From positions 248,001 through 312,000 of the forward strand of contig CANMOV010000002.1 in assembly GCA_947499565.1 (NCBI GenBank): a DNA stretch of 64,000 bases, given 5' to 3'. Numbering within the stretch: the stretch's first letter is position 1; the number at the start of each line of letters is the position of its first letter. This document shows positions 4,553 to 17,992 of this stretch, piece by piece. The DNA is from an uncultured Croceitalea sp. GTDB lineage: Bacteria > Bacteroidota > Bacteroidia > Flavobacteriales > Flavobacteriaceae. The notes beneath the pieces are model-generated. The model made no database searches. It worked only from the letters and a program-made list of their open reading frames with translations, and had not been told where the DNA came from. The position numbers and the translations under genes are program-made.

Positions 4553-6148
4553 ATGGAGCAGTTAAATCATATTACGATCATAGGAATCTTACTTCTGGGA
4601 AGTGGGTTAAGTTTTGCTTTAGTACGTCTTCTCAAATCCGGCTTTTATCTTAACATATTTTGGATTGTAGTGGGATTGTTTTGGCTTTGGATAAACTCCC
4701 ATAACATAAAACAATTTGTTTATTTTCTCTTAATCCTTGGTTTGCCTTTACTATTTGTCAATATCATTTGGTTTGTCTTTTTTCCTAAGGGTGAAAATCA
4801 AAATACTGGAAACCGTTACAGCGTTCTAATGCAAGTCACCAAAGGCAAGCTGCTTTTGAAAAATATCCGTCGTGGAATTGCCATCATCGGGGCTGCAGGG
4901 AGTGGTAAAACAGAAAGTGTGGTCTATCCGTTATTGGGTCACTTTAGCCAATGGAACTTTAGTGGAATCATCTACGATTATAAAGACTTTGAAATTACAG
5001 AGATGGCATATCCCCTATTCAGTAAAGGCAATATTCCCTTTCGAATTATTTCCTTTGATAAGATTTATTCTAAGGTCAATCCCATTGCACCAAGATACCT
5101 CCCCGATGAAGAAAGTGTCAACGAAGTTTCTCGGGTGCTTGTAGAAAACCTATTGGAGCAAAAAGATAATAGTATGAATGCTACTACACGCTTTTTTAAT
5201 GATGTGGTGGAAGGTTTAATTGGCGGAATGATTTGGCGGTTGAAAGCAGATTTTGAAGACTATTGCACCTTACCCCATTTGATTGCAATCTATCAATATT
5301 TGGATACCAAAGGCTTAATCAAGTTCTTATCGGCAAATACCACCTCTAAAGCGATGGCGGATGCATTCATTAGTGGTACAGGCTCGGAACGGCAAACAGC
5401 GGGAGTCAAAAGTACTCTGGCCAATGCCTTTAAAAAGATTAGCACCCAACGCATCTTTATGGCCTTGTCCAAAGATGAAATCAATTTGAATATTAACCAC
5501 CCCGAAAGCCTGGGCGTAATCGCTGTGGTTAATAACCCTAAAATTGAAACCTCATTGTCTCCTGTAATTGCAACAATCATTCATACGATTACCAAACAAA
5601 TGAGTATCCGAAACCGAAATCCTTCTTTTCTGTTAATGGAAGAAGCAGCTACGCTACGATTGCTAAACATGCATCGGATACCAGCCACCTTAAGGAGTTA
5701 TGATATTGCCACCGTTTATGTGTTGCAGGACAAGATTCAAAATGACATGATGTATGGACCAATGGCAAGTAAAGCGATTCTGAGTAATCTCTCCTATCAG
5801 TTCTTTGGAAAAGCAAATGACCCCGATACCGCAAAGTATTATGAACGCTTTTTTGAAATTGTCAAAAAGGAAACCCTTAGTGTGAACAAAGGATACAACC
5901 TCAATTTTGATACCCGAGTTACGAAAGGGGAACGGGAGGTTGCAAAAACACGTGCGGAAGTTTTTTACAGATTACCACAAGGTGGTTTTGTGGTATTGGC
6001 AGATGGTAAGGATAAAAAGGTGCAGTTCAGAACTCCTCAGATTGTAAGACAATTGCCATTACCAAAAGAAAATTCAAAGAAAGAACTGCAAGAGAATTTT
6101 GAGCGAATTCATAAAGAAGCTATAGAGCTCATTAGTATAATAAGTTAA
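4553..6148 (+). CDS. mobC: Type IV coupling ATPase (MobC/TraG-TraD type)
   Basis: A 531-residue VirD4-type coupling protein. Two or three membrane segments lie in residues 5-80. Walker A is GAAGSGKT at 113-120; Walker B is the LLMEEAA segment near residue 362. It links the relaxosome to the mating-pore proteins encoded by the tra operon. It follows the relaxase gene directly on the same strand. Length and motif order are normal for Bacteroidota MobC-type proteins. Confidence 0.92.
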   Translation: MEQLNHITIIGILLLGSGLSFALVRLLKSGFYLNIFWIVVGLFWLWINSHNIKQFVYFLLILGLPLLFVNIIWFVFFPKGENQNTGNRYSVLMQVTKGKLLLKNIRRGIAIIGAAGSGKTESVVYPLLGHFSQWNFSGIIYDYKDFEITEMAYPLFSKGNIPFRIISFDKIYSKVNPIAPRYLPDEESVNEVSRVLVENLLEQKDNSMNATTRFFNDVVEGLIGGMIWRLKADFEDYCTLPHLIAIYQYLDTKGLIKFLSANTTSKAMADAFISGTGSERQTAGVKSTLANAFKKISTQRIFMALSKDEINLNINHPESLGVIAVVNNPKIETSLSPVIATIIHTITKQMSIRNRNPSFLLMEEAATLRLLNMHRIPATLRSYDIATVYVLQDKIQNDMMYGPMASKAILSNLSYQFFGKANDPDTAKYYERFFEIVKKETLSVNKGYNLNFDTRVTKGEREVAKTRAEVFYRLPQGGFVVLADGKDKKVQFRTPQIVRQLPLPKENSKKELQENFERIHKEAIELISIIS

Positions 6149-6554: not shown

Positions 6555-6857
6555 TTATTTTAAATGTTTGGGGAAATCCATTTTACCTCCCAAAACTCGG
6601 ACGATAAAAATTCCATCTTGAATTATATAGTAGAATATTACATGTGACTTAAACCTAAAACGAAGTAGCATTTGATTCTTTATGGCTACATATCTTCTTC
6701 CTAAGTCAGGATTATCGGCCAGTTCGCTTAAAATTTTCTTTAAACCATCGGCATACTTTAAAGATTGACTTACCCCAAAATTCTCAATAGTGTATAAAGC
6801 AATAGACTTTATATCACCTTTAGCTTTGGCACTAATTACATACTTACTTTTCGCCAT
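6555..6857 (-). CDS. parE: ParE-family toxin
   Basis: A 100-residue RelE/ParE-superfamily toxin. Typical features are the helical start with KAKGDIKSIALYTIENFG, the middle NPDLGRRY segment and a beta-rich C terminus containing HVIFYYI and VRVLGGKMD. ParE toxins usually poison DNA gyrase; this target is inferred from the family. Its start overlaps the parD stop by 14 bases, the usual antitoxin-toxin arrangement. It would stabilise the ICE by post-segregational killing. Confidence 0.9.
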   Translation of the reverse strand: MAKSKYVISAKAKGDIKSIALYTIENFGVSQSLKYADGLKKILSELADNPDLGRRYVAIKNQMLLRFRFKSHVIFYYIIQDGIFIVRVLGGKMDFPKHLK

Positions 6858-7095
6858 CGTGTTGGCTTATGGCTTCTTCCCAAATACTGTCTATGGTCGC
6901 ATCAGAAGGGCCACTTTCAATGCCATCAATCAATGCTTCGTTTAAGTCAACAATACGTTTTCTTCGTTCTTGATCTTTTCGAATAATATCCCTGACGTAT
7001 TCGCTATCGTTAGTGTAGAAGCCTTGCTCTATCAAGCTTTTGACATAAGCATCTTGCTGTTCCGTAAAGGTTATGGATTTTCTTATTACCGCCAT
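6844..7095 (-). CDS. parD: ParD-family antitoxin
   Basis: An 83-residue antitoxin with an N-terminal ribbon-helix-helix (KSITFTEQQDAYVKSLIEQG, then YTNDSEYVRDIIR) and an acidic, disordered C-terminal half that would wrap the toxin. It is the first gene of the pair and is preceded by a 25-bp palindrome that fits autoregulation. Confidence 0.92.
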   Translation of the reverse strand: MAVIRKSITFTEQQDAYVKSLIEQGFYTNDSEYVRDIIRKDQERRKRIVDLNEALIDGIESGPSDATIDSIWEEAISQHDGEK

Positions 7096-7098
7096 AAT

Positions 7099-7123
7099 GA
7101 ACCAATATTATTAATAATGGTTC
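7099..7123. promoter_or_regulatory. ParD operator candidate
   Basis: A 25-bp palindrome, four bases before the parD start codon. The outer arms are GAACCA and TGGTTC and the centre is TATTATTAATA; all but one position pair. Ribbon-helix-helix antitoxins bind such sites to repress their own operon. Confidence 0.6.
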
Positions 7124-7162
7124 AATTTAAACAATAAATAGGAATAAAACAACCATCATTTA

Positions 7163-7194
7163 ACTCTTTACTAAAGGTGCAATTTGTAAAGAGT
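7163..7194. repeat. Left attachment site of the nested element
   Basis: ACTCTTTACTAAA, core GGTGCA, ATTTGTAAAGAGT. The arms are inverted repeats with one mismatch. The layout (13-6-13) equals that of the site at 17126-17157. Confidence 0.72.
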
Positions 7195-7374
7195 GTAAGT
7201 TTTTGTGAATCTTATATAAAAATGACATATGCAGATTTACAGTTTACTATATTAAATACGTATTATTCTAAAGGCTGTTTTAAATCTGCTAATACAGATG
7301 TGTTTTTCTGAATAAAACAACTCATAAATGACTATTTTGGTTTATAAAAAAATGGACTTACAAACATTTAAAAA

Positions 7375-8178
7375 ATGACCTTAATAATATCTTGGATTGG
7401 AGTAGATGATAAAAAAGAAGGTAAAAAACCGGCGTCTCTATATATTGCTTCAGATAGCAGATATAGTTGGGGAACTTCCACTAAATATGATTATGGAATT
7501 AAAGTTTTCGGTTCTTCTCGATTTCCTGAGATTTTTGGATTTTGTGGAGATGTCTTACTCCCAAGTATCATCTTGGGACAACTATTGCCGCAAATTGATT
7601 CAGGTATAATTCTGAATGATGCAGATAAAGGAATTGAAAAAAATGATAAAATATTCGATTTTATTTCCACATCAATTGAAAATTACCCGAAAGAACAATC
7701 AACTGGGTCATTTACAATTTTGCACGGAACAAGAAGTGGTAAGGAATTCTCTTGTTTTAAAACAATTTTCAATAAGGTTAATGGTTTAAAAAATGAACAG
7801 ATTGACCTTCCCAAAATTTCCACTAAGATTTGCAGCGAAGGTTCTGGAAAAAAGGAGTTCGATAATCATTTTCAGGAATGGGAAAAGGAACGTCATAACA
7901 ATTACCGGACAAGTAGAGGGGTTTTTCATTGCTTAAGTAGAACATTAAAAACCATTAAAGACCCAATGACGGGTGGCTTACCCCAAATTGTAGGTCTTTA
8001 TAGAATTGATAATTCTAGACTATTTGGAATTGTTGAGAACAATAAAAAGTATATTTATGGTAAGGAAAGTTCAGAAGATATTAATTCGAACCGAATTGAA
8101 TGGAGAAATGAAAATTTTGAACGAATGAATCCTGAAACACTTAAAATATTATCTGGAGCCCAAAGGCAACCAATATAA
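7375..8178 (+). CDS. Proteasome-beta-like Ntn hydrolase
   Basis: A 267-residue protein that reads like a proteasome beta/HslV/Anbu-type Ntn hydrolase. Thr2 would become the N-terminal nucleophile after methionine removal. Asp27 lies in an ASDSR segment that matches the beta-subunit (A/S)D(T/S)R motif, and Lys43 follows exactly 16 residues later, the Asp17-Lys33 spacing of proteasome subunits. A 9-residue insertion (11-19) precedes the Asp strand. The FGFCGDVLLP segment (56-65) fits the following strand and helix. No ATPase partner of HslU or ARC/Mpa type is nearby. It lies inside the nested element, transcribed toward the defence genes. Substrate unknown; a role in defence is inferred from location only. 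Confidence 0.68.
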   Translation: MTLIISWIGVDDKKEGKKPASLYIASDSRYSWGTSTKYDYGIKVFGSSRFPEIFGFCGDVLLPSIILGQLLPQIDSGIILNDADKGIEKNDKIFDFISTSIENYPKEQSTGSFTILHGTRSGKEFSCFKTIFNKVNGLKNEQIDLPKISTKICSEGSGKKEFDNHFQEWEKERHNNYRTSRGVFHCLSRTLKTIKDPMTGGLPQIVGLYRIDNSRLFGIVENNKKYIYGKESSEDINSNRIEWRNENFERMNPETLKILSGAQRQPI

Positions 8179-8234
8179 GAAGCAACTCCCTAACTCTCCA
8201 CTAATTTGAATACATTAAAATGGGAGGGCGAGGT

Positions 8235-8347
8235 GCCTGGTAACTTGGCAGGAATGCCAAGTTTACCATTAGGGTTTTAGAATCCACCGTGGTGTAAATA
8301 GATAGCACACTCATATCGAAATGAGAGGCCCTGGGGCAGAGCCAGGC
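8235..8347 (+). ncRNA. Candidate structured RNA in the defence element
   Basis: The 257-base gap between two convergent genes is locally GC-rich and full of pairing. Arms GGTAACTTGGC and GCCAAGTTTACC (8239-8267) pair with one bulge around an AGGAAT loop; CTCAT/ATGAG (8310-8325) and CCTGG/CCAGG (8330-8346) form small hairpins. GCCTGG (8235-8240) can also close the whole unit by pairing with CCAGGC (8342-8347), in competition with the last hairpin. Strand is unproven. Terminator activity for the convergent genes is a simpler reading, but the complexity exceeds that of a terminator. No reverse transcriptase is nearby, so a retron is unlikely. Confidence 0.42.
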
Positions 8348-8435
8348 GGATTTTAAAAAGTAACGTTGGCGATTACCTATATTAAATATAAAAAGTTAGT
8401 AAACAGATAAGAATATAGAAACTTGACGAAGTCAA

Positions 8436-9323
8436 TTAATTTATTATTTCATTATTTAACATTGACAATTCCAAAAAGATTACAAAGCTCTCGAATAACT
8501 CTTTAATATTGGATTCTTCATCGTAAGTATCGACCAATTTAGGAAGATTTCCAACGAAGTAGTATAAGCTTCCAAAACTGTTAATGCTGTTTATTTTGCC
8601 AAGAGTAGCATTATAAAGAATATGTTTTAGGTTTTTAGCTACGGTTTCTGTTGAATATAATTTGAAGATATCCAAATCTTCAAGAGCGGCATAGTTCCCG
8701 TTTAAATGCCCTGAGACTTCGACTACGCTTAATTTTTTTTCAATTATCAATTCTTTATCACTTGAGTCTAACATACCATGTTTGTACCTATAATCACTTG
8801 AATTTGACTTGTGGACATCTTCTTCGTAAGGCAAGATAGTTATGGCACATTTTTTTAACTTCTTCAGTTCCTCTGCATCCTTAGAAATACGGATTTTATA
8901 TTTGAAAAATTTCAGGTCATCTAATAACTCCTCCCACCTTGAGGAATAAAAAACATTTGCAATGTCTTTAAAGTCCACTTCTTTATTAAATCTATTATGC
9001 TTCCACAATGTGTTTACAGCATAATTGAATACCCTTTCAGGGAAAGCACTTATATGTTTCGGAGGTAAATTAAACCATATGATATTCAAATCATCCAGAT
9101 CAAAATACTTCATTACTTTATCAATTATAGAGGGAGAATGAATGCTTATGTAATCAGCTAATAAATGTCTAATTCCTTTTTCTGACATATTTTGAGTAAA
9201 GACAACTCTTTTAATTGCTGTTTCCTCATCGATTAATCCATTTTCCTCAAATACTTTTAAGGCAACATGCATATTGATAACTGTATAGTCTTTTCTGCGA
9301 TAGTACATGCTCCAACAGTCCAA
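8436..9323 (-). pseudogene. C-terminal part of the nuclease-STAND protein (frameshifted)
   Basis: A 295-codon frame overlapping the end of the 810-residue STAND gene by 77 bases. Its first residues read poorly, while the sequence from DYTVINMHVALKVFEENG onward continues the helical repeats of the STAND protein. Removing one A from the AAAA run at 9291-9294 (minus strand) joins the frames as QKD and gives one protein of about 1,080 residues. The region is probably the sensor end of the NTPase. It could be a separate overlapping gene, a pseudogene, a sequencing error or a programmed +1 shift. Confidence 0.6.
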
Positions 9324-11679
9324 TACTTTCGATATCTGTTTTTATTTCTTTTTCTAACGATAGACGTAAATAATTCAAAATATTTACCGACATGTCAAAA
9401 GAACCAATTGAACTATTCTCTTTTACATAGTTTTTTAAATTGAGATTGAGATATGGATTTTTTTCAGGAAGTCTACCCAATGCTAATAAATTCTTCTTTA
9501 CATCATTCAACACCCAATGGGGGTATCGCCGTTCAGAACTTTGCCTATGTAATATTATTTCCAACGCCCTTATTCCCTCATTTTCATCAACATTTATAAA
9601 TGTATCTATACAGTTTTGTAACTCTAATAATGATTCATCTGATGTTTTATATATATACAAATTGGTAAGAATATGAGTTAAATATTCTCTCCAATTGAAA
9701 TCATCTTTTAAGTAATAGTCTATTGAGTTATTTAATTTTACAGGCTTTGCATGTTTTAAGAAAAAATGCTTTTCGGTATAAACATCTTTTTTTAATCCTT
9801 CTAAGAAACGAGTTGTACTATAAAGTGAGTCACTTGTTATATTGTAAAGCAAAGAAGGGTCATTTTCGAGAATGTAGTTAAACATTCCAAACAAGTACTC
9901 AGAGCTCGTTACATCTTCAGTTGTGTATCCGTTATAGAATAAGCATTTCGAGTATGTATACAAAAATTGGTTTTGAGTTGATATATGGTCTCTAATAACA
10001 ATATTGATTATCAAGGATAAATCGTAATAGTCAATGACTTCTAATTCTGAGTGTGGAACATCATTTAAAGCTTCTCTAATTTGGGTGTAGAAAGCTCTTA
10101 AAGCTTCAAAATCGATACAATCTTTAACTATCTCCTTAAAAACTTTTATCGAAGAAAACTGTTTAATAACCTCTAACTTCATTTCGACCTCAAGGTCAAA
10201 AAAAGAGAACCTTGACATAAATCTTTTTTCTTTCCTAGCAAGGGAATTATAAACCAGATTATTTACACTTTCTTTCCTTTTAGAAAAATTAATGTTTTGT
10301 TCTTTTAAATACTTATTCAAACTATCATGGAATAGGGAAATTCTGTTTAGCCGCTTCTCAAATAAATATGGATAAGCTGCAATGAATTCATTTAGGCAAT
10401 CAAAAAGTTCATCTGATAAAAACAGATTTAATTCTGATTCCATGAAAAAGCTTTGAGAGGTTAGGAATAAAGTAAGTGCCGTTTTAGTATTTACATTTAT
10501 AAGTATTTGGTCGTAGTAATCCTCAACCCCTTTTAACTTTTCAATATTTGGAACATTCTTAAAAGTTTTAAAGTGTTCTCCAATAAACCTAACTAATATG
10601 GGGTATCCGTCAGTTATATTGTAAATGTTACTGCAAATCGTATATTTTTCAATATGGTAAAGTTCATTAAGAACTTTTCTGGTTTCCTCCTCGTTCCAGT
10701 TTGTTAGAACCTGTTTTTTCCAACTTAAATTAAATTTTAAGGGTCTTGATAAAACTATCACTTTACATTCGATAGCAAGTTTATTTAAAAATTCAATAAA
10801 ATGCTTTAAATCAGTATTATTATAGTTTTCTACATGGTCTAACCCATCCAGTATAAATAGCTGTTTATTACTCTTTATTTTACTAATTATTTCAATTTCA
10901 TTTCTGTATACATAATCATTGAAAAGCTTTTTTGAAATATCAGATATAAAGTTTGAATATATCAACCTTGCTTTATAATCTTTATCTTGATTTGATAACC
11001 AGAATCGATAAACAAAGCTGTTTTTATAAATAGAGGATAAGGTATTGACATAGTGGCTTTTTCCAACACCCGGTTTTCCTTCGATGTGAAGGATATTTGA
11101 AAACTCTAAATGTCGTTTGCCGACGTTAATCGTTTCTTCTAAAAGCTTAGTATCAAAAACCTTTATTATTGGTAGGTCTTCTCTTTTAATCGATAGTACT
11201 CTATTATCAAGACATTTTTTAAAGAATTTGTCAATTATAATTTTTCTTATTTTATTGCTTTCATACAATTTATCAATTACTTCATCAGCTTCTATTCTTG
11301 ATAATGATATTATATAGAGGTCATCTGTCTTGCGAGCTGAAAGTCCTAAGAATTTACAATTAGATTCAATATCAATCTTCTTAAAAACAAGGACATTGAA
11401 ACCACTATCAGATAATTTATGTTTTCTGCCTTTTATAAATACTTCGTTTTTGGATATCTCCAAATCATTTAAGGCGATTTTATCAAAATCTTTAATTTGA
11501 CAAAAGATTAGATTTCCTTCACTTAAAATCCTAACGTCGTCGAAATTATGATTTACATCAGCTTCAATATCCAATGATTTGAACTTTCTTTCAACGTCCA
11601 TCATTACTAAAAACAAAAAGGTAATTTGTTCCTGATAAGTGTATCCAGTAAGCGCATTTTTCGATGGTCTCATTTTCAT
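9247..11679 (-). CDS. Nuclease-STAND NTPase, Avs-like (N-terminal part)
   Basis: An 810-residue protein. The N terminus fits a PD-(D/E)xK dsDNA nuclease of the Cap4/DUF4297 kind: E17 in GYTYQEQ, D47-D48 in DDVRI and Q61-x-K63 in CQIKD. A STAND-type NTPase follows: Walker A GKPGVGKS (201-208), Walker B ILDGLDHVE (276-284) and sensor strand VIVLSRP (307-313). The rest is helical repeat. This layout is that of Avs antiviral proteins, which oligomerise on sensing a phage protein and activate the nuclease. The gene starts 10 bases after a 357-residue partner and ends early through a frameshift near 9291, losing about 284 residues. Confidence 0.75.
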   Translation of the reverse strand: MKMRPSKNALTGYTYQEQITFLFLVMMDVERKFKSLDIEADVNHNFDDVRILSEGNLIFCQIKDFDKIALNDLEISKNEVFIKGRKHKLSDSGFNVLVFKKIDIESNCKFLGLSARKTDDLYIISLSRIEADEVIDKLYESNKIRKIIIDKFFKKCLDNRVLSIKREDLPIIKVFDTKLLEETINVGKRHLEFSNILHIEGKPGVGKSHYVNTLSSIYKNSFVYRFWLSNQDKDYKARLIYSNFISDISKKLFNDYVYRNEIEIISKIKSNKQLFILDGLDHVENYNNTDLKHFIEFLNKLAIECKVIVLSRPLKFNLSWKKQVLTNWNEEETRKVLNELYHIEKYTICSNIYNITDGYPILVRFIGEHFKTFKNVPNIEKLKGVEDYYDQILINVNTKTALTLFLTSQSFFMESELNLFLSDELFDCLNEFIAAYPYLFEKRLNRISLFHDSLNKYLKEQNINFSKRKESVNNLVYNSLARKEKRFMSRFSFFDLEVEMKLEVIKQFSSIKVFKEIVKDCIDFEALRAFYTQIREALNDVPHSELEVIDYYDLSLIINIVIRDHISTQNQFLYTYSKCLFYNGYTTEDVTSSEYLFGMFNYILENDPSLLYNITSDSLYSTTRFLEGLKKDVYTEKHFFLKHAKPVKLNNSIDYYLKDDFNWREYLTHILTNLYIYKTSDESLLELQNCIDTFINVDENEGIRALEIILHRQSSERRYPHWVLNDVKKNLLALGRLPEKNPYLNLNLKNYVKENSSIGSFDMSVNILNYLRLSLEKEIKTDIESIGLLEHVLSQKRLYSYQYACCLKSI

Positions 11680-11689
11680 AATTGGAGCT

Positions 11690-12763
11690 TTACTTTTTAG
11701 TACTTAGGCCATGGATTATGCGACTTACAATCGTTTTTGAACTTGCCGAATTCTCTGTTCTTAAAAATTTTCCATAACCAAGCCATCGAAGCCATTTAAT
11801 TAATCTATTTATCCCCCTATTATTTCTTAGACTATAAATAGCATTAATAATCCTCCATGGTTTAGAAACAAATACCCATCTACCATTTACAAAACACCAA
11901 ACACTAAAAGAGACCCCACCAACATTTACAGAATAAAAACTAACGTTTTTTTGAAAACAATCAAATTCCTTAAAGGCCATCGACATTCCACCAGGAAGTT
12001 GATCAACTTCTTTTTCAATATCATCAACCGATGAAACACAGACCTTAATAGCACCACTTATTTTTTTTGGAGTTGCGATGCCATTCGAATTAAACGTTTC
12101 GCCGTGTAACAGATTATAAAAGTCACTTACTTCCCTGTATATATCATTGCTGAAGATTTTTCTAAAATCATGAAGATTAGGTTGAGCATGAAAAAAAATC
12201 ATTTGTTGATCAATCTCGGGGTCATTAAATTGATTAAAAAAAGCGTTTATTTCGGCCTTGGTCGGTTCTCTATCTAAATAAGCGTTATGACTTCTAAATA
12301 CTTCAGCAGAATAGTACTTTTTTCCGATTTGAGGATACTTTAACATGAAACTTAGAATTTCAGAATGGCCCCAATGCTTGACTTTCATATCTATTTTAAG
12401 GGAGACTTCTTCCAACCAGGACATTCCGTGTCTTGTGAAATTATCCGGAGTAACCAAAATCCATTCATCCATGTCTGAAAAACTCTCAACGGCTTTAATC
12501 AAAGATTTCTTTATATTTATTTTTTCTTTTTTAGGATTCCCTTCAAAGAACCTGTATTGTAGGCCAATTTTCTTCAAACCCCTTTCCATTATTGCATCGA
12601 CGCCTTTGAAATCTCCTGCTGAATCAGAGTATGATTGAAAGTGATAATCATATAGCTGAGAATCTTCAAATAATAATTGATTCATAGCTCTTGCAAATTC
12701 TTGACCTCCCTCACTCCCATGATGGATAATTTTAGAAAGAGACGGTATATTTGGAATTGACAT
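11690..12763 (-). CDS. Nuclease-like partner of the STAND protein
   Basis: A 357-residue protein I cannot name. Residues 15-130 resemble the restriction-endonuclease-like domain found at the N terminus of several defence STAND proteins: E22, then D55 in FKGVDAI, then Q69-Y70-R71 where an active enzyme would have Q-x-K. Next come a kinked helical segment with WILVTPDNFT and a tail rich in Trp and Phe. The arginine may mean loss of nuclease activity and conversion to a binding domain. The 10-base spacing to the STAND gene suggests a two-gene system. Coding is sure, function inferred. Confidence 0.6.
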   Translation of the reverse strand: MSIPNIPSLSKIIHHGSEGGQEFARAMNQLLFEDSQLYDYHFQSYSDSAGDFKGVDAIMERGLKKIGLQYRFFEGNPKKEKINIKKSLIKAVESFSDMDEWILVTPDNFTRHGMSWLEEVSLKIDMKVKHWGHSEILSFMLKYPQIGKKYYSAEVFRSHNAYLDREPTKAEINAFFNQFNDPEIDQQMIFFHAQPNLHDFRKIFSNDIYREVSDFYNLLHGETFNSNGIATPKKISGAIKVCVSSVDDIEKEVDQLPGGMSMAFKEFDCFQKNVSFYSVNVGGVSFSVWCFVNGRWVFVSKPWRIINAIYSLRNNRGINRLIKWLRWLGYGKFLRTENSASSKTIVSRIIHGLSTKK

Positions 12764-12844
12764 TGAATTTTATTTTTTGATAACCTACTTAGTTTTCAAA
12801 TAAGATAAACCAGAACAATTTTTGTGTTAAGTCAGTATGAAATG

Positions 12845-15800
12845 CTAACTAAAAAAATTCGTCCGCTTTATTTCGTTGAAAGAATAAATTGGTAAATCCG
12901 TTTCATTTAAAAATTTAATGGGTAGCTGATATGATGATATTATCATTGATACCACCCTATAAACCTTCTTCCTTAGTCCAAATTTTTCTATCACTTTATC
13001 TTGGTTTTCGCTGAGCCATGAATGACGCCGAATATGTTTTGGCACCTGAAGTGTCACATAGTTTTTTAAATCTCTTTGAAAATCATACATGATTTTGGCA
13101 TGCCTTGTGTTTTTGCACTCTAATGAATAAATTATTCTTTTATCCTCATCAAAAGCAAGAATATCTATATCACCGTAGTTTTTATCCGCTGTCAAGGTGC
13201 CTTTTGGTTCTATTTTAACTTCAAAAGGAACGATCTCAAGACTAGTATTTTCGTTCAGCCATTTGAAAACAGAGTTTCTATAATTCCGCCCCTTGATATT
13301 ATTTCTTTTGGCGATTAAATTCAAAACACCATAATGTTCCGGATCAGTTCTTAAACTTGCATTTGAAAATTGGTAAAATAAATTTCCCGCAGATTTTATC
13401 ATGAAACGGGCACCCCATAAAAACTTTGTTCCTTCATTAGGAATATCAATTTTAATCAATGGCTTTCGTAAAAGGGATAGTTTTCTGTTATATCTCCAAG
13501 GGAAAATCTCTGGCATCTGATATCCTTTAGGAGCCTTATCGATTTTCCCTCTACTAGTTAATGTCACAACTTTTAAATAGGCCTTAATCTTTTCTTCTGT
13601 GAATGAGGTTTCCTTATTGATTAAATCAATGAATTCTTTTTCGGCTAAAAAGCAGAAGGACTTTTCATGAGACAAACAATACTCGGCCAAAAAATGTGAG
13701 ATAGAATAGATCTCCGGTAACGCTATTCCCCACTCTGTAGAGAAAACTTCATCGACGTTGTCATAATATGTTGAACTGGCTGAATCCGTTTCAGCATCAT
13801 ATTTTACAGAGAAGTTGTCTTCGAAATTATTCACATAATCCAATAGTTCATCTTGATTATTCGCGGTATTGTAGTTAGTCAAAACATTCGTGTAGAACTC
13901 CTTGTTTATTCCCAATCGGCCAGATGGCAATAACCCTATCTTTGGATCATCAATATCAAATCGAATGGAATCTTGGACGGTTCCGAAATATATCATCTCC
14001 TGGACAAGAGCTAGAAGATAATCCACGTCATCATTGTTAGGTCGTTTACTTCCATAGTATGGTTCTGCAACAGCAAACTCGATTAAACACCTTAATGATA
14101 ATCCAACGTTGACAATATCCGCTTCGGTCTCCTTATATTCCTCATTAATATCTTTATACTTCTCAAAACAGGCAATCCTCGCTGGTATGTACAATTTTCT
14201 GTACTCCTGGTGCTGCACTATTGCTTCGTGTTTAAACAATAAAAACTTGAGGAGCTCAAATGTATCATACTTTTTTAATTCCTTTCTTATTTCTTTGATT
14301 ATTGCATTTACACAGTCTACAAGCATTTTAATCTTGCTCTCTTTGCCCTCGATTTCCTCTGGTATTGAGTCATCACTAGAGACCCACCCCAAAACGTTCT
14401 CCAAAACGTAAGAACAATCTGATTTAGAAATATATCTGACATTTGGAATATTTCTATTATCAATTAACAGGTTGTTCTCTGAAATTGCAGTAAGTATCAT
14501 TTTAGCTGGACCAAGTGGTATTGAATCATTAATACCCAATAAAATCTCTTCTTCATCAATAAATGGCTTTTTATAAATTTCCATGATTCTAGAAATACTT
14601 TCCAGAATTACTTTCATTAACTCTCTCTCTCCATGATTATCCTGTCGATGCAACAACTTATGGAACGAATCTGGGATATTGATGATTATTTTACCAATTT
14701 CCGTTTTGAGTTCGTATTCAATATTGTTATTCTCGTTGGATTCATTTTTTTTCTGATGTTCCAAACTGAAGAATTCCTCACTTATCGAAATTGATATTTC
14801 AATAGGGCCATCAAATTCATACGAAATATTCTTAGATTGAGAAAGCTCGTTTAACCAGAAAGCAACCGCATCGACAAAATGCTTGGAGTGGGGGTTACTT
14901 TTATCATTTTCTATTATCCAAACTGGAAATCCAAAACCCTTAAATATTTTTTTGTATTCCCCAAGAAATAGCTCTTTTGATAGATAAATCGGGCCGTAGG
15001 TATCTGTTTTGAATACGGGAGTATATCCGAAGCCTCTTCCCTCCATGTACCTAAGCACCCCATGTTTGTCCGTTTTAATATTGTCATCGATGATAATATT
15101 ACCTTGAATAGAAAAATCGAAAAACACACCACCATATGCCTCATCACTTGAAAAAAAAGAACCATGGTTATATTCATAATGAGAGTAGTATGTCAGTATT
15201 GAATAACCCGGGCCTATGCTTAGACCCTTGTCTAATGCAGCTTTAAAACTTTTTGCATATTTCCATAATGATAACTTATCAAGCTTCCACTTACTTGTAA
15301 TTCTTTCTAAATCGAGATTACCAGTCACAATAACATTATCAGCCTCCTTGATGTCTGTTAGTCCTAAATACTGCGGTTCTAGAGTAGTGTAGGTGGACAT
15401 AATGAAAATTGCAAAATACCGATAATCATCATCCTTTATAGCATCTTTTACCACCGATAAAACTTCGTTTGCTCGATCTTCCAACTCAATACCATCATCT
15501 CTATTGGGAAGTACATTGACGTAAGCAATTTTGTTTTCGTCAAATTGCCAAAACGATTCTCCTTTTAGAACCTTGATTTTGGAACTTATTTTTTTGTCCA
15601 GATCAGTTCTCGACCATCCCATTTTGACCAGTTGAATTTTTGTGTCCCTAATAACATCCGAATCAAATAGATTCACTATTTCATGTAAACAATTACTGCT
15701 CTTTAGAGTGTTAATGATAAAATTGTCAAGCGCATACATTTGTGAGGTTGGCATTGCCAGATAGTATCTATCCTCATATTTGATAAATGGTTTAAATAAA

Positions 15801-16453
15801 AGTGGGTTTTTGTCATAGTTTTCAATGTCAATAGTGTTGTTCTCCCAGTCAAATAGGAATTCATTTATGACATCATTCTCGATTTTTAATTTGTCGTAAG
15901 TTGTCTGTATTTCATGGGCGGAAAATGAAATAGCGCTTTTCCCTTCCTTAAAGGCGGCTTCTTCTGGAAAATATAGTTCCTCCCCTTCCCAAACAGGTTT
16001 CATATATCTTTCCAAACCGTTCTCCGTTGCAATTTGATTATAGATATCTAACATGAAGAACATTGCAGTGCCAATATTTTTTTTTGCCTTTTTAGGGACT
16101 TTGTTATTTTCAAGCAGGACTATACTTGATATTTTTTCCACTATTGCAGTACTATCTATTACGATTCCTGGGAACACAATATTGTTGCCATTCATGAAGA
16201 GAAAATTCTCTGTGAAAGATGTCTCGGGTGGGTCTTCTCTATGATCGTTTGGGAAAAACTCTCTTATGGCATTTACGGTTCCATCGTAGTTTATTTCATC
16301 TTCAATCTTATTTAAGTTATTGATTATATGACTTTGTATAATTTCTAACCTTAGATTTTTGCTATGATTTTCAGGAAAAAGTTGACTAAAGGAAATTAGT
16401 TCCAATAATTCTATTGTGTTCTTTTTCTTGAGGTATTGTATGAATTCTTTCAC
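12845..16453 (-). CDS. Large protein with C-terminal PD-(D/E)xK nuclease motif
   Basis: A 1,202-residue protein without a recognised overall family. Near residues 1091-1113 it has GDIDILAF followed by SLECKNT, a well-formed PD-(D/E)xK active site (D about 1093, E-x-K about 1111-1113). No P-loop, helicase or methylase motif was found. The first 1,080 residues are acidic, mixed alpha/beta, with several Trp/Tyr-rich segments. It lies 31 bases after the recombinase gene on the same strand and 81 bases before the 357-residue gene. The setting points to an antiphage nuclease, possibly a single-gene system. Function is inferred. Confidence 0.62.
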   Translation of the reverse strand: MKEFIQYLKKKNTIELLELISFSQLFPENHSKNLRLEIIQSHIINNLNKIEDEINYDGTVNAIREFFPNDHREDPPETSFTENFLFMNGNNIVFPGIVIDSTAIVEKISSIVLLENNKVPKKAKKNIGTAMFFMLDIYNQIATENGLERYMKPVWEGEELYFPEEAAFKEGKSAISFSAHEIQTTYDKLKIENDVINEFLFDWENNTIDIENYDKNPLLFKPFIKYEDRYYLAMPTSQMYALDNFIINTLKSSNCLHEIVNLFDSDVIRDTKIQLVKMGWSRTDLDKKISSKIKVLKGESFWQFDENKIAYVNVLPNRDDGIELEDRANEVLSVVKDAIKDDDYRYFAIFIMSTYTTLEPQYLGLTDIKEADNVIVTGNLDLERITSKWKLDKLSLWKYAKSFKAALDKGLSIGPGYSILTYYSHYEYNHGSFFSSDEAYGGVFFDFSIQGNIIIDDNIKTDKHGVLRYMEGRGFGYTPVFKTDTYGPIYLSKELFLGEYKKIFKGFGFPVWIIENDKSNPHSKHFVDAVAFWLNELSQSKNISYEFDGPIEISISISEEFFSLEHQKKNESNENNNIEYELKTEIGKIIINIPDSFHKLLHRQDNHGERELMKVILESISRIMEIYKKPFIDEEEILLGINDSIPLGPAKMILTAISENNLLIDNRNIPNVRYISKSDCSYVLENVLGWVSSDDSIPEEIEGKESKIKMLVDCVNAIIKEIRKELKKYDTFELLKFLLFKHEAIVQHQEYRKLYIPARIACFEKYKDINEEYKETEADIVNVGLSLRCLIEFAVAEPYYGSKRPNNDDVDYLLALVQEMIYFGTVQDSIRFDIDDPKIGLLPSGRLGINKEFYTNVLTNYNTANNQDELLDYVNNFEDNFSVKYDAETDSASSTYYDNVDEVFSTEWGIALPEIYSISHFLAEYCLSHEKSFCFLAEKEFIDLINKETSFTEEKIKAYLKVVTLTSRGKIDKAPKGYQMPEIFPWRYNRKLSLLRKPLIKIDIPNEGTKFLWGARFMIKSAGNLFYQFSNASLRTDPEHYGVLNLIAKRNNIKGRNYRNSVFKWLNENTSLEIVPFEVKIEPKGTLTADKNYGDIDILAFDEDKRIIYSLECKNTRHAKIMYDFQRDLKNYVTLQVPKHIRRHSWLSENQDKVIEKFGLRKKVYRVVSMIISSYQLPIKFLNETDLPIYSFNEIKRTNFFS

Positions 16454-16484
16454 GAATCTAAGATACTATACCTTGGTAAATAAA

Positions 16485-17075
16485 TTAGTCCCACAATCTT
16501 TCAAAGCGTTTACTAGCCACACGAGTATATTGAGCGGTATGTTTAGGATCTCGATGGCCAAGGTAATCTTGAATCAAGCGAAGGTCATAACCCAAATTGG
16601 CCAAATAAAACCCACAAGAATGACGAAGGGTATGTGGATGTACATTATCAATTTTTGCGTTTACTCCTACTGCACTCACAATATATGACACTGCTTGACG
16701 GGTCAGAGGTAATCCTCTTTCGCTCACAAACAACCATGGTAATTTATCTTTTCGAGAATTTAGATAACGCTTAATCGCTCTAAGCTCATCTCCAGAAATT
16801 GGATGCTCGGTAGACAACCCACCTTTCAATCTGTTTATCCATACTCTAGAATCTTTTAAGTTGACATCTGATTTCTTCAGTGCAACTGCTTCACTAACTC
16901 GAAGACCGTGATGGTACATCATCAACAGTAAAAGATAATTCCGCTTTGGGTATCTTGTCTTTTTTGAAGCTTTTAGAAAAATTTTGATTTCGGAATCACT
17001 TAAGTAGTTCTTACTCTTCTCATGGAAATTTGTGGTCTCTTTTTGAGAACTCTTTACATTACGCCTTTTAGTCAT
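16485..17075 (-). CDS. Catalytic-domain-only tyrosine recombinase
   Basis: A 196-residue tyrosine recombinase that lacks the N-terminal core-binding domain of XerC/XerD and phage integrases and is about the size of FimB/FimE. The active site is complete: Arg59 in GLRVSEA, Lys in RLKGG, HTLRHS, LGHRD and the Tyr in AQYTRV. It starts 51 bases inside the right 32-bp site and is the first gene of a leftward run with the nuclease gene 31 bases behind it. It probably recombines the sites at 7163 and 17126 to move the element. A FimB-like inversion role is less likely, as no invertible promoter is seen. Confidence 0.88.
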   Translation of the reverse strand: MTKRRNVKSSQKETTNFHEKSKNYLSDSEIKIFLKASKKTRYPKRNYLLLLMMYHHGLRVSEAVALKKSDVNLKDSRVWINRLKGGLSTEHPISGDELRAIKRYLNSRKDKLPWLFVSERGLPLTRQAVSYIVSAVGVNAKIDNVHPHTLRHSCGFYLANLGYDLRLIQDYLGHRDPKHTAQYTRVASKRFERLWD

Positions 17076-17125
17076 AGTAATAGAATTAGGGTTAAACTCC
17101 CTAAATTATAATCAAAAAAAGCAGT

Positions 17126-17157
17126 ACTCTTTACAAAATCCGCTTTTTGTAAAGAGT
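17126..17157. repeat. Right attachment site, overlapping the tra terminator
   Basis: ACTCTTTACAAAA, core TCCGCT, TTTTGTAAAGAGT: perfect 13-bp inverted arms. Read leftward it begins 10 bases after the traN stop and, a few bases beyond the hairpin, a seven-T run follows, so the site also looks like the intrinsic terminator of the tra operon. Confidence 0.72.
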
Positions 17158-17167
17158 TACAAAGTGT

Positions 17168-17992
17168 TTATGGCCTTCTTTTCAGTATTAACTCCCTATT
17201 CCCATGCAATTCTTTAAGGTTCAATTGCAATTTTTCATCATCCGCTAACGTAAACTTAGAAATCACATAAACAAACCTCGAAGTTTGGGAGTGTTTGGTT
17301 TTGTCTGGCATTTTATGGATATAAACTGGCGTAAGTGGTACGGATTGATAAGAAGCTTTAAGTTTACTATTGCCACTAACTATAGCTACTTTTAGATAGT
17401 CAACATCGAAATCAATTCCTGATTTATTTTTGACCTCCAATTGTAAAAACACCAAATCTTCATAATAGACCATATTCGTAATACCAAGGGATAGTTCATT
17501 TTTTCGTTTGACCATATTCTTACGCTCCGGTTGTTCCAATAGTTTGGTACAAGAAGCTTCTAAAAACGAAGTATCGTATTTCTTCTTTAATACTTTTTTG
17601 ACCTTTGGCTGAATACTATCCTGAACAATGGGCTTTTCCCTCTTATGTTCATGACCAATACTTTCAGTTATGGTAACAAATCGGTTCAGTTCTATCAAAG
17701 CATCTGAGTATTTGATGATATAAGAATAGACTTTGCCATCAGTGGTCACTACCAAAAGATTGCTTGGCTCACCTTTCGTAGCTTTTAATAATCCTAGGGG
17801 TTGCCCCAGCTCCCGACTATAGGTAAAAATAAAGTTATCAGAACCAACAATCCCCTGACGGATATTGTTTGGAAAAAAAAGTGCCAAGTTCATTTTTTCA
17901 TTGGCATAGATGGTATCCAATTTTTTGTTTTTCCGTGCGTACGCGGCAAGAACGGTCAATGTAAATGCTAGTGTCAGTATTCGAGTTTTCAT
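17168..17992 (-). CDS. traN: Conjugative transposon protein TraN
   Basis: A 274-residue DUF4138-type TraN, last gene of the tra operon. It has a signal peptide (MKTRILTLAFTLTVLAAYA), a beta-rich N-terminal part ending near residue 105, a lysine-rich linker and a beta-rich C-terminal part. TraN is thought to be a VirB9-like outer part of the mating pore. The next upstream gene, traM, ends 28 bases before its start. Downstream traO to traQ are not present, and the right site of the nested element begins right after the stop. Confidence 0.88.
   Translation of the reverse strand: MKTRILTLAFTLTVLAAYARKNKKLDTIYANEKMNLALFFPNNIRQGIVGSDNFIFTYSRELGQPLGLLKATKGEPSNLLVVTTDGKVYSYIIKYSDALIELNRFVTITESIGHEHKREKPIVQDSIQPKVKKVLKKKYDTSFLEASCTKLLEQPERKNMVKRKNELSLGITNMVYYEDLVFLQLEVKNKSGIDFDVDYLKVAIVSGNSKLKASYQSVPLTPVYIHKMPDKTKHSQTSRFVYVISKFTLADDEKLQLNLKELHGNRELILKRRP

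Follow-up and report, generated by a model that had tools for sequence, protein, structure and literature searches.

Why should a mobile element end in two recombination sites that share nearly identical arms and differ in their cores? This question is raised by a 64,000-nt stretch of contig CANMOV010000002.1 from an uncultured Croceitalea sp. (the whole of which we refer to as the window), where an element at positions 7163-17157 lies nested in an integrative and conjugative element (ICE). We named the site on the recombinase side P and the other site D, and give both in the orientation that puts the recombinase on the plus strand; the window's P is then ACTCTTTACAAAA-AGCGGA-TTTTGTAAAGAGT and its D is ACTCTTTACAAAT-TGCACC-TTTAGTAAAGAGT. 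The features that pose the question are the following:

16485..17075, minus strand: tyrosine recombinase of 196 aa, catalytic domain only, whose gene starts 50 bp inside the right site
17126-17157, minus strand: P site at the recombinase end, 13-6-13, ACTCTTTACAAAA TCCGCT TTTTGTAAAGAGT, minus-strand core AGCGGA
17049-17061, minus strand: third half-site TAATGTAAAGAGT, overlapping the first codons of the recombinase
7163-7194, minus strand: D site at the far end, 13-6-13, ACTCTTTACTAAA GGTGCA ATTTGTAAAGAGT, minus-strand core TGCACC

The answer that we consider probable, though modestly so, is that such elements are defence cassettes which site-specific recombination at a pair of heterospecific sites swaps for one another, a proposal drawn from comparing their sequences. 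The initial annotation of this DNA had described two 32-bp sites and, just inside the right one, a recombinase without a core-binding domain; both were confirmed, with a start-to-start distance of 9,963 bp. The 13-bp arms of the right site (P) form a perfect inverted pair, and those of the left site (D) pair at 11 of 13 positions. Allowing up to three mismatches, the 32-bp pattern occurred twice in the window and not once in 100 dinucleotide shuffles of it, and no further copy was found in the whole genome, whereas a lone 13-bp arm is ordinary at two mismatches (17 observed vs 15 expected). The Pfam domain Phage_integrase covers residues 24-189 of the 196 in the recombinase (206 aa for the open frame), and Arg59, Lys84, His148, Arg151, His174 and Tyr183, to which we presumptively assign the catalytic roles, were invariant in 12 aligned recombinases, the window's included.

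Close recombinases (E <=1e-30) were present in five of 149 genomes of the family, counting the window's, and at nine public-contig loci that include Croceitalea (93%), Allomuricauda, Pricia and Ulvibacterium; at four of these nine (L014-L017) the recombinase open reading frame (ORF) is broken. A class-wide search at E 1e-40 returned the window genome alone among 395. Using a site pattern blind to the core, we obtained matches in 24 of 397 family genomes, compared with three of 397 for a reversed-pattern control, and a P...D pair in ten of the 24. With L009, L011 and L014 added, this gave 13 two-ended elements of 4.4 to 18.3 kb, and the arrangement of paired sites beside the recombinase, for which the initial annotation had proposed a search, does recur in relatives.

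We determined the cores in a census of 21 P and 17 D sites, from which G138 (two sites), G003, the second P-type site of G018 and the same-place duplicates L013 and L057 were excluded. The P core was AGCGGA in 13 of the 21, the remainder being one or a few changes off (the furthest, TCTGTA, in G286), and the D core was TGCACC or CGCACC in 12 of the 17, with the rest near. In every one of the 13 two-ended elements the P core lay within one change of AGCGGA and at least four from TGCACC, while the D core lay within two changes of TGCACC and at least three from AGCGGA; a P-like core at D or a D-like core at P was found in none of them. The P end of elements without a recombinase was recognised by the third half-site, independently of the core, and the relative orientation of P and D was constant. 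Mismatches per arm averaged 0.43 (outer) and 0.52 (inner) at P and 0.82 (outer) and 0.59 (inner) at D. Single pattern matches in G075, G129, G152, G199 and G269 had cores unlike those of both P and D.

These cores bear on the suggestion of the initial annotation that the two ends recall the coupling sequences of Tn916, which vary with the target. An element of the Tn916/CTnDOT kind would form a circle with a mixed core and carry a target-derived coupling sequence at one end, and a pair of sites alike in their arms but not in their cores, next to a tyrosine recombinase, does fit such an element. However, target-derived sequences are argued against because each end has its own conserved core in mostly differing flanks; the outer arms, moreover, are about as conserved as the inner ones, and site-free relatives have no resident site. 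The idea is already contradicted, and we give it next to no credence.

The third half-site and the 32-bp site at 17126-17157 together make up a P complex of about 109 bp. A half-site GTAAAGAGT starts 67-69 bp inside P in 18 of the 21 P sites (17 exact and one with a mismatch), and is missing at the usual spacing from G018, L017 and the degenerate G227b. In G018 (L013:9978) and L017 (L017:9978) the recombinase coding sequence follows directly on the inner arm of P with no interval left, perhaps through a deletion between P and the half-site. The G018 element also contains a second P-type site (L013:15141) with its own third half-site, the outer flank of which resembles that of the first P over about 109 bp; two elements may perhaps stand in tandem there.

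Eight of the 13 two-ended elements had no recombinase-like ORF of at least 70 aa (E 1e-3, in the fetched locus) and kept both ends, and the best matches elsewhere in their genomes were 30-35% identical. All eight retain the third half-site within one mismatch, at the place that overlaps the first codons in elements bearing the recombinase, and G347 retains a stretch resembling those codons. An ATG at the expected place was missing in seven of the eight, with G222 one base off, and was present at seven of eight loci with the gene, the exception being G286. Neither the elements without a recombinase gene nor the third half-site at 17049-17061 had been foreseen by the initial annotation.

To follow the cargo, we compared elements that occupy the same place. 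The first docking place lies in an integrative element (relaxase, small HTH gene and integrase, named from motifs) and holds, in four genomes, three cargos with no blastp relation to one another (E 1e-6 over 40% of the query): 18.3 kb in G215, SIR2-HerA in G347, and Avs2 in G382 and G080. The flanks of G080 and G347 are 89.2% (left) and 94.7% (right) identical over 1.5 kb each. Conversely, G080 and G382 share their cargo at 97.0% over 11,640 bp, with 19 of the 21 cargo windows listed at 97% or higher and the lowest at 80/100, while their left backbones up to P show 75-97 matches per 100 bp and their right backbones beyond D show 67-99. Similarity on the inside ends within D, and the outer flanks of these two differ for about 0.7 kb before the integrase resumes. 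At the second docking place, G781 and L011 agree in 200 of 226 columns of the left flank and 281 of 301 of the right, and the available part of the G781 cargo (4.2 kb beside P and 2.4 kb beside D) had no blastn match to that of L011; two G781 contigs were read as one place because both flanks match L011. The same place thus carries different cargo and the same cargo sits in different backbones, with steps at P and D, and from these alignments changes of cargo appear to break at the two sites. The first base of the D core tracks the flank in G347 and G080 vs G382 and G215, and does not do so in G781 vs L011. An earlier view of the G781 P complex as a chimera was dropped on recount, 99 of 110 columns agreeing with the window and 93 of 110 with L011.

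A rival account is that the cargo region is simply a hot spot of homologous recombination, in which P and D are shared sequence with no active part. The P complex does offer about 109 bp of shared sequence, and the traG-traN interval carries other sequence without a site in two related ICEs, as a hot spot might. D, however, is 32 bp long with an unrelated inner side, and in G382/G080 an unrelated outer side as well, and P and D persist in the eight elements without a recombinase. We regard passive recombination as very unlikely.

We then considered places that lack the element. In the window, the following genes flank it, among conjugative neighbours comprising TraM, a TraG P-loop protein, the coupling protein and DUF4138:

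17168..17992, minus strand: TraN (DUF4138), whose stop lies about 10 bp outside P
6555..7095, minus strand: ParE toxin and ParD antitoxin genes, outside D
4553..6148, plus strand: conjugative coupling protein

A traN match was present in 72 of 299 genomes, and among 30 traN loci fetched with 1.5 kb on each side a site (<=3 mismatches) was found in three, namely the window, G217 and G225. The closest other traN loci, G184 and G258, hold 4.4 and 9.9 kb of other sequence between traG and traN and no site within seven mismatches, and D was absent from the 110 bp upstream examined at four other parDE homologues (L135, L136, L139 and L152). At L077, L078, L079 and L083, which look element-free, no site was found within seven mismatches; in the last three, 21-24 bp separate the two homology blocks. 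The single site that the initial annotation expected at cargo-free junctions was therefore seen neither at these four loci nor in traG-traN of the two related ICEs. L080, L081 and L082, which like L078, L079 and L083 are relatives of the shared integrative element, had no site either, and a search with the flanks matched 318 of 319 genomes, mostly at tRNA genes, without yielding a sharper empty place. On the loci examined, a pre-existing attB was rejected.

These loci weigh on a further alternative, modelled on the single-strand recombination of CTX phage and integrons, in which P and D would recombine with each other for excision and integration, one strand being exchanged at the same core edge in both sites and the junction resolved by replication. 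The P core would then always go with the circle and the D core stay at the empty place, and strand polarity, not core matching, would fix the ends. This scheme also predicts fixed, end-specific cores, the core mismatch would block the second exchange, and the P complex looks like an att site to which an accessory half-site has been added. Yet the empty places that it predicts (P left arm, D core, D right arm) were absent among the matches listed for the 24 of 397 genomes, the unpaired D sites in G225, G011, G347b and G227a keep the T of the inner D arm at arm position 13, and the four candidate empty loci carry no site. We judge it unlikely, if deserving of a hearing.

L077 was informative in another way. 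This allele comes from a genome in the genus of G781, and its flanks are 90.3 and 91.5% identical to those of G781. In place of the roughly 226 bp, P...D and 55 bp of G781 it holds 70 bp of other sequence, suggesting that the founding insertion there brought more than P...D. The same difference favours a non-autonomous transposon with its true ends outside P and D, these being internal sites derived from a Tn3-like ancestor, and some loci do share outer stretches. The ancestry of the recombinase is consistent with this. Recombinases 59-61% identical to the window's occur in Rhizobium, Sphingobium, Tritonibacter (in an unannotated record) and Pukyongiella, all four with a P-type site (2-4 mismatches) 82-93 bp upstream of the matched start and three of them, Tritonibacter being the exception, with a third half-site as well. 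Those of the alphaproteobacteria Rhizobium and Sphingobium (61% identical), the closest in a plasmid collection, stand directly behind a Tn3 transposase gene and have a single P complex apiece, whereas the Pukyongiella recombinase does not stand directly behind such a gene. No comparable site was found beside a Piscirickettsia recombinase (53% identical). In contrast to what a transposon would lead one to expect, the cargo steps lie at P and D and not at outer ends, a resolution site would be single and not two with different cores, and no Tn3 transposase match was obtained with Pfam in 36 proteins (six from the window and 30 from other elements). Inverted similarity beyond P and D in G018, the single element tested in full, scored 23 vs a shuffle 95% level of 26.5. 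A transposon is distinctly improbable as an account of the whole; it may hold for the founding insertion, which would be compatible with later cassette exchange. L086, L087 and L088 are Rhizobium/Sphingobium Tn3 transposons with a small FimB-like recombinase and a 13-6-13 site.

The proposed exchange concerns defence genes, and the initial annotation, which saw a mobile defence carrier bounded by 13-6-13 sites and nested in an ICE, was supported in this. Between D and the recombinase, the window encodes:

12845..16453, minus strand: Upx-like anti-phage protein of about 1,200 aa (PADLOC Upx, 1.8e-37)
11690..12763, minus strand: 357-aa protein with a weak match to the defence candidate family PDC-M58A (0.0023)
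9247..11679, minus strand: NACHT/STAND-type P-loop NTPase of 810 aa
8436..9323, minus strand: 295-aa ORF in a different frame that overlaps the 3' end of the NTPase ORF, without a family match
7375..8178, plus strand: 267-aa protein

The PADLOC match of the Upx-like protein (P0002 of the window) is to the C-terminal part of Upx, and the NCBIfam Upx model gave 5e-46, yet far below its cut-off. Relatives of the 357-aa protein, 36-37% identical, occur in the G080 and G382 elements. The STAND NTPase named by the initial annotation is moderately supported, NPHP3_N (1e-5) standing above its cut-off and NACHT (0.005) below. From its position, the 295-aa ORF may be a continuation of the NTPase after a frameshift. 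The 267-aa protein, a putative Ntn hydrolase according to the initial annotation, had no significant match in Pfam, PADLOC, NCBIfam or PDB sequences. Beside its gene, the non-coding interval 8180-8400 folds as RNA better than its shuffles (z -2.76; 1 of 200 as good) and is possibly an RNA of unknown kind; no Rfam match at E 0.1 was found in 6900-17500.

We ran PADLOC on 50 proteins of other elements together with six window ORFs, leaving out G080 because it is 97% identical to G382. A match of 1e-10 or better was obtained in 11 of the 12 two-ended elements scanned, and 58 of 68 genes of at least 150 aa read in the P-to-D direction (recombinases and both G382 and G080 counted). The cargo of the other two-ended elements was as follows:

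L009: QatA, QatC and reverse transcriptase UG39
L011: PDC-M11A and a helicase
L014: type II methyltransferase and a nuclease
G018: AriA/Old-like and E1-E2
G350: PifA/KAP
G104: IetA and IetS, with Abi-alpha by Pfam
G347 and G377: SIR2-HerA
G382: Avs2, Ppl and PDC-S39
G222: HamA and HamB, almost alone in 4.4 kb

One-ended loci gave the following:

L012: type IIG enzyme
L017: LmuA-like and E1-E2/JAB
G286: type I restriction and MkoA
L010: weak ZorB only
G334: no match in the single protein scanned

Evident from the sequences are two fixed end types, a P complex, members without a recombinase and defence cargo. We propose that the P-to-D segment of the window belongs to a family of defence cassettes, and that the small recombinase would bind both P (complex, AGCGGA) and D (simple, nGCACC) through their near-identical 13-bp arms. 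Because the cores of P and D differ, P would pair productively with P and D with D, and not P with D. Should a cell come to contain two P...D molecules, such as a resident conjugative element and a newly arriving one, recombination of P with P and of D with D would swap the cargo and leave the flanks in place. The recombinase would presumably act in trans, so that cassettes could drop the gene and keep the sites only.

Several points weigh against this proposal. What we have are footprints in sequence, a circle, cointegrate or exchange not having been seen directly, and a further mechanism is needed to found new docking places; some loci, as noted, have outer stretches beside P or D in common. 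The 13 elements are not all independent, four being at one place and two of these with one cargo, and eight P loci and four D loci had no convincing partner in the sequence examined. In G300, four tRNA genes (ARAGORN) lie inside P, beginning about 250 bp from it, so that this P is a relic or its element is gone. At the second docking place the similarity of G781 and L011 spans the whole P complex, which places the left joint only to that stretch, and as P is about 109 bp long homologous recombination through it is possible. A crossover exactly left of the D core was rejected, one comparison fitting it and the other contradicting it. Loss of the start codon does not clearly mark decay, since the ATG is also missing from G286, whose recombinase ORF is intact. 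As for the cargo, PADLOC covered 38 of 75 ORFs of at least 100 aa in the 11 other two-ended elements, picked mostly by size, and the defence share stands without a PADLOC control set of other ICE cargo. G215 (L041/L042), 18.3 kb long with both ends, gave 1.9e-5 at best in nine of its 19 ORFs of at least 100 aa, and may carry other cargo or a defence system of unknown type.

P or D adjoins traN in the window and L012 (and in G225 in the other orientation), the coupling-protein gene in L009 and G104, and an amidase gene in L014 and G227b, and lies near integrase genes in G215, G347, G382, G080, G350, G018 and L009. ARAGORN placed tRNA genes outside the site, no more than about 0.3 kb away, in G222, G334 and G011; one suspected beside G104 was not confirmed by that program. 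In G350 a tmRNA gene (L043:12743-13139) lies past the integrase next to D, and is perhaps the attachment place of the G350 integrative element. About 53 bp beyond D are alike in several of L009, L011, G018, G350, G347, G011 and G227a, with a few pairs exceeding the shuffle 99.9% level; we read this stretch as possibly promoter-like. An exact 30-base match to P or D was not found in viral contigs, and the best match in 167 phage records was always below 60% identity. Matches of Arenibacter/Flagellimonas plasmids to part of the P complex were dismissed as chance, no P or D being found in the 28 and 19 kb fetched.

Our broader claim, that these elements form a natural immunity cassette-exchange system in which a small Tn3-resolvase-like recombinase and two fixed heterospecific sites swap whole defence systems between conjugative elements at standing docking places, many of the cassettes being non-autonomous, is put forward tentatively, as a finely balanced matter. 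The interpretation offered by the initial annotation is, taken together, partly supported. A description of the P/D pair was not found in the open-licence literature searched, preprints excluded. If exchange does operate, it would explain in concrete, testable terms how ICEs and genomic islands turn over their defence systems. The P/D pair could also serve as a finder, any gene group between the sites, including those that match nothing strongly, being a candidate defence system, and a recombinase with two naturally insulated sites could be useful as a DNA tool.

How, then, does the P/D system compare with known ones? Tn916 and CTnDOT integrases have arm-binding, core-binding and catalytic domains, whereas the window recombinase has the catalytic domain only. 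Integrons also combine a tyrosine recombinase with swappable cassettes, the recombinase lying outside the cassettes and the attC sites being folded; a P/D element is instead a multi-gene unit between two similar core sites with the recombinase inside, and the integron-integrase model gave 57.8 bits vs a cut-off of 265. Engineered recombinase-mediated cassette exchange relies on two heterospecific sites that are alike in their arms and unlike in their spacers, as P and D appear to be, but the P/D pair is natural and conserved and flanks defence cargo. The GmtY model of the Gamma-mobile-trio scored 44.1 bits vs 340. Invertases of the FimB/FimE type are likewise about 200 aa, and the NCBIfam tyrosine-type DNA invertase model was the best match, although the window recombinase scores 179.3 vs a cut-off of 221 and there is no inverted identical pair.

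For the Tn3 family, the portion of PMC7157771 drawn on here names the resolvase types TnpR, TnpI and TnpS+TnpT. It describes the irs of TnpI in Tn4430 and Tn5401 as a core inverted-repeat site with extra binding motifs before the recombinase gene, which is like P, and by sequence such a layout appears in P with its third half-site (18 of 21) and before the Tn3-linked relatives of Rhizobium and Sphingobium. The P/D elements differ from the Tn3 family in having no transposase among the cargo proteins scanned and in bearing, at each end, a site with its own core. Their relatives in Rhizobium and Sphingobium have the P complex and recombinase in common with them, and no second site in the stretches examined.

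The pdif modules of Acinetobacter (dif, XerCD) are gene groups between short two-arm sites with a 6-bp spacer, as set out in the sections of PMC13141974 used here. There, recombination takes place between identical or near-identical spacers, exchange of a single module is modelled as cointegrate formation and resolution, and the sites belong to XerC and XerD, a recombinase acting in trans (PMC13141974). pdif sites have distinct 11-bp XerC and XerD arms, alternating C/D and D/C orientation and several spacers (PMC13141974), in contrast to the 13-bp near-symmetric arms, two fixed cores and one relative orientation of P and D. The cargo named for them includes toxin-antitoxin genes, resistance genes and others, and those sections contain none of the words phage, defence or defense (PMC13141974), whereas the P/D elements carry mostly defence cargo, with a dedicated recombinase in some members and a third half-site at P. 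By analogy, and with these differences in mind, the exchange of pdif modules through matching spacers appears to be the nearest described process to the cassette exchange proposed here.

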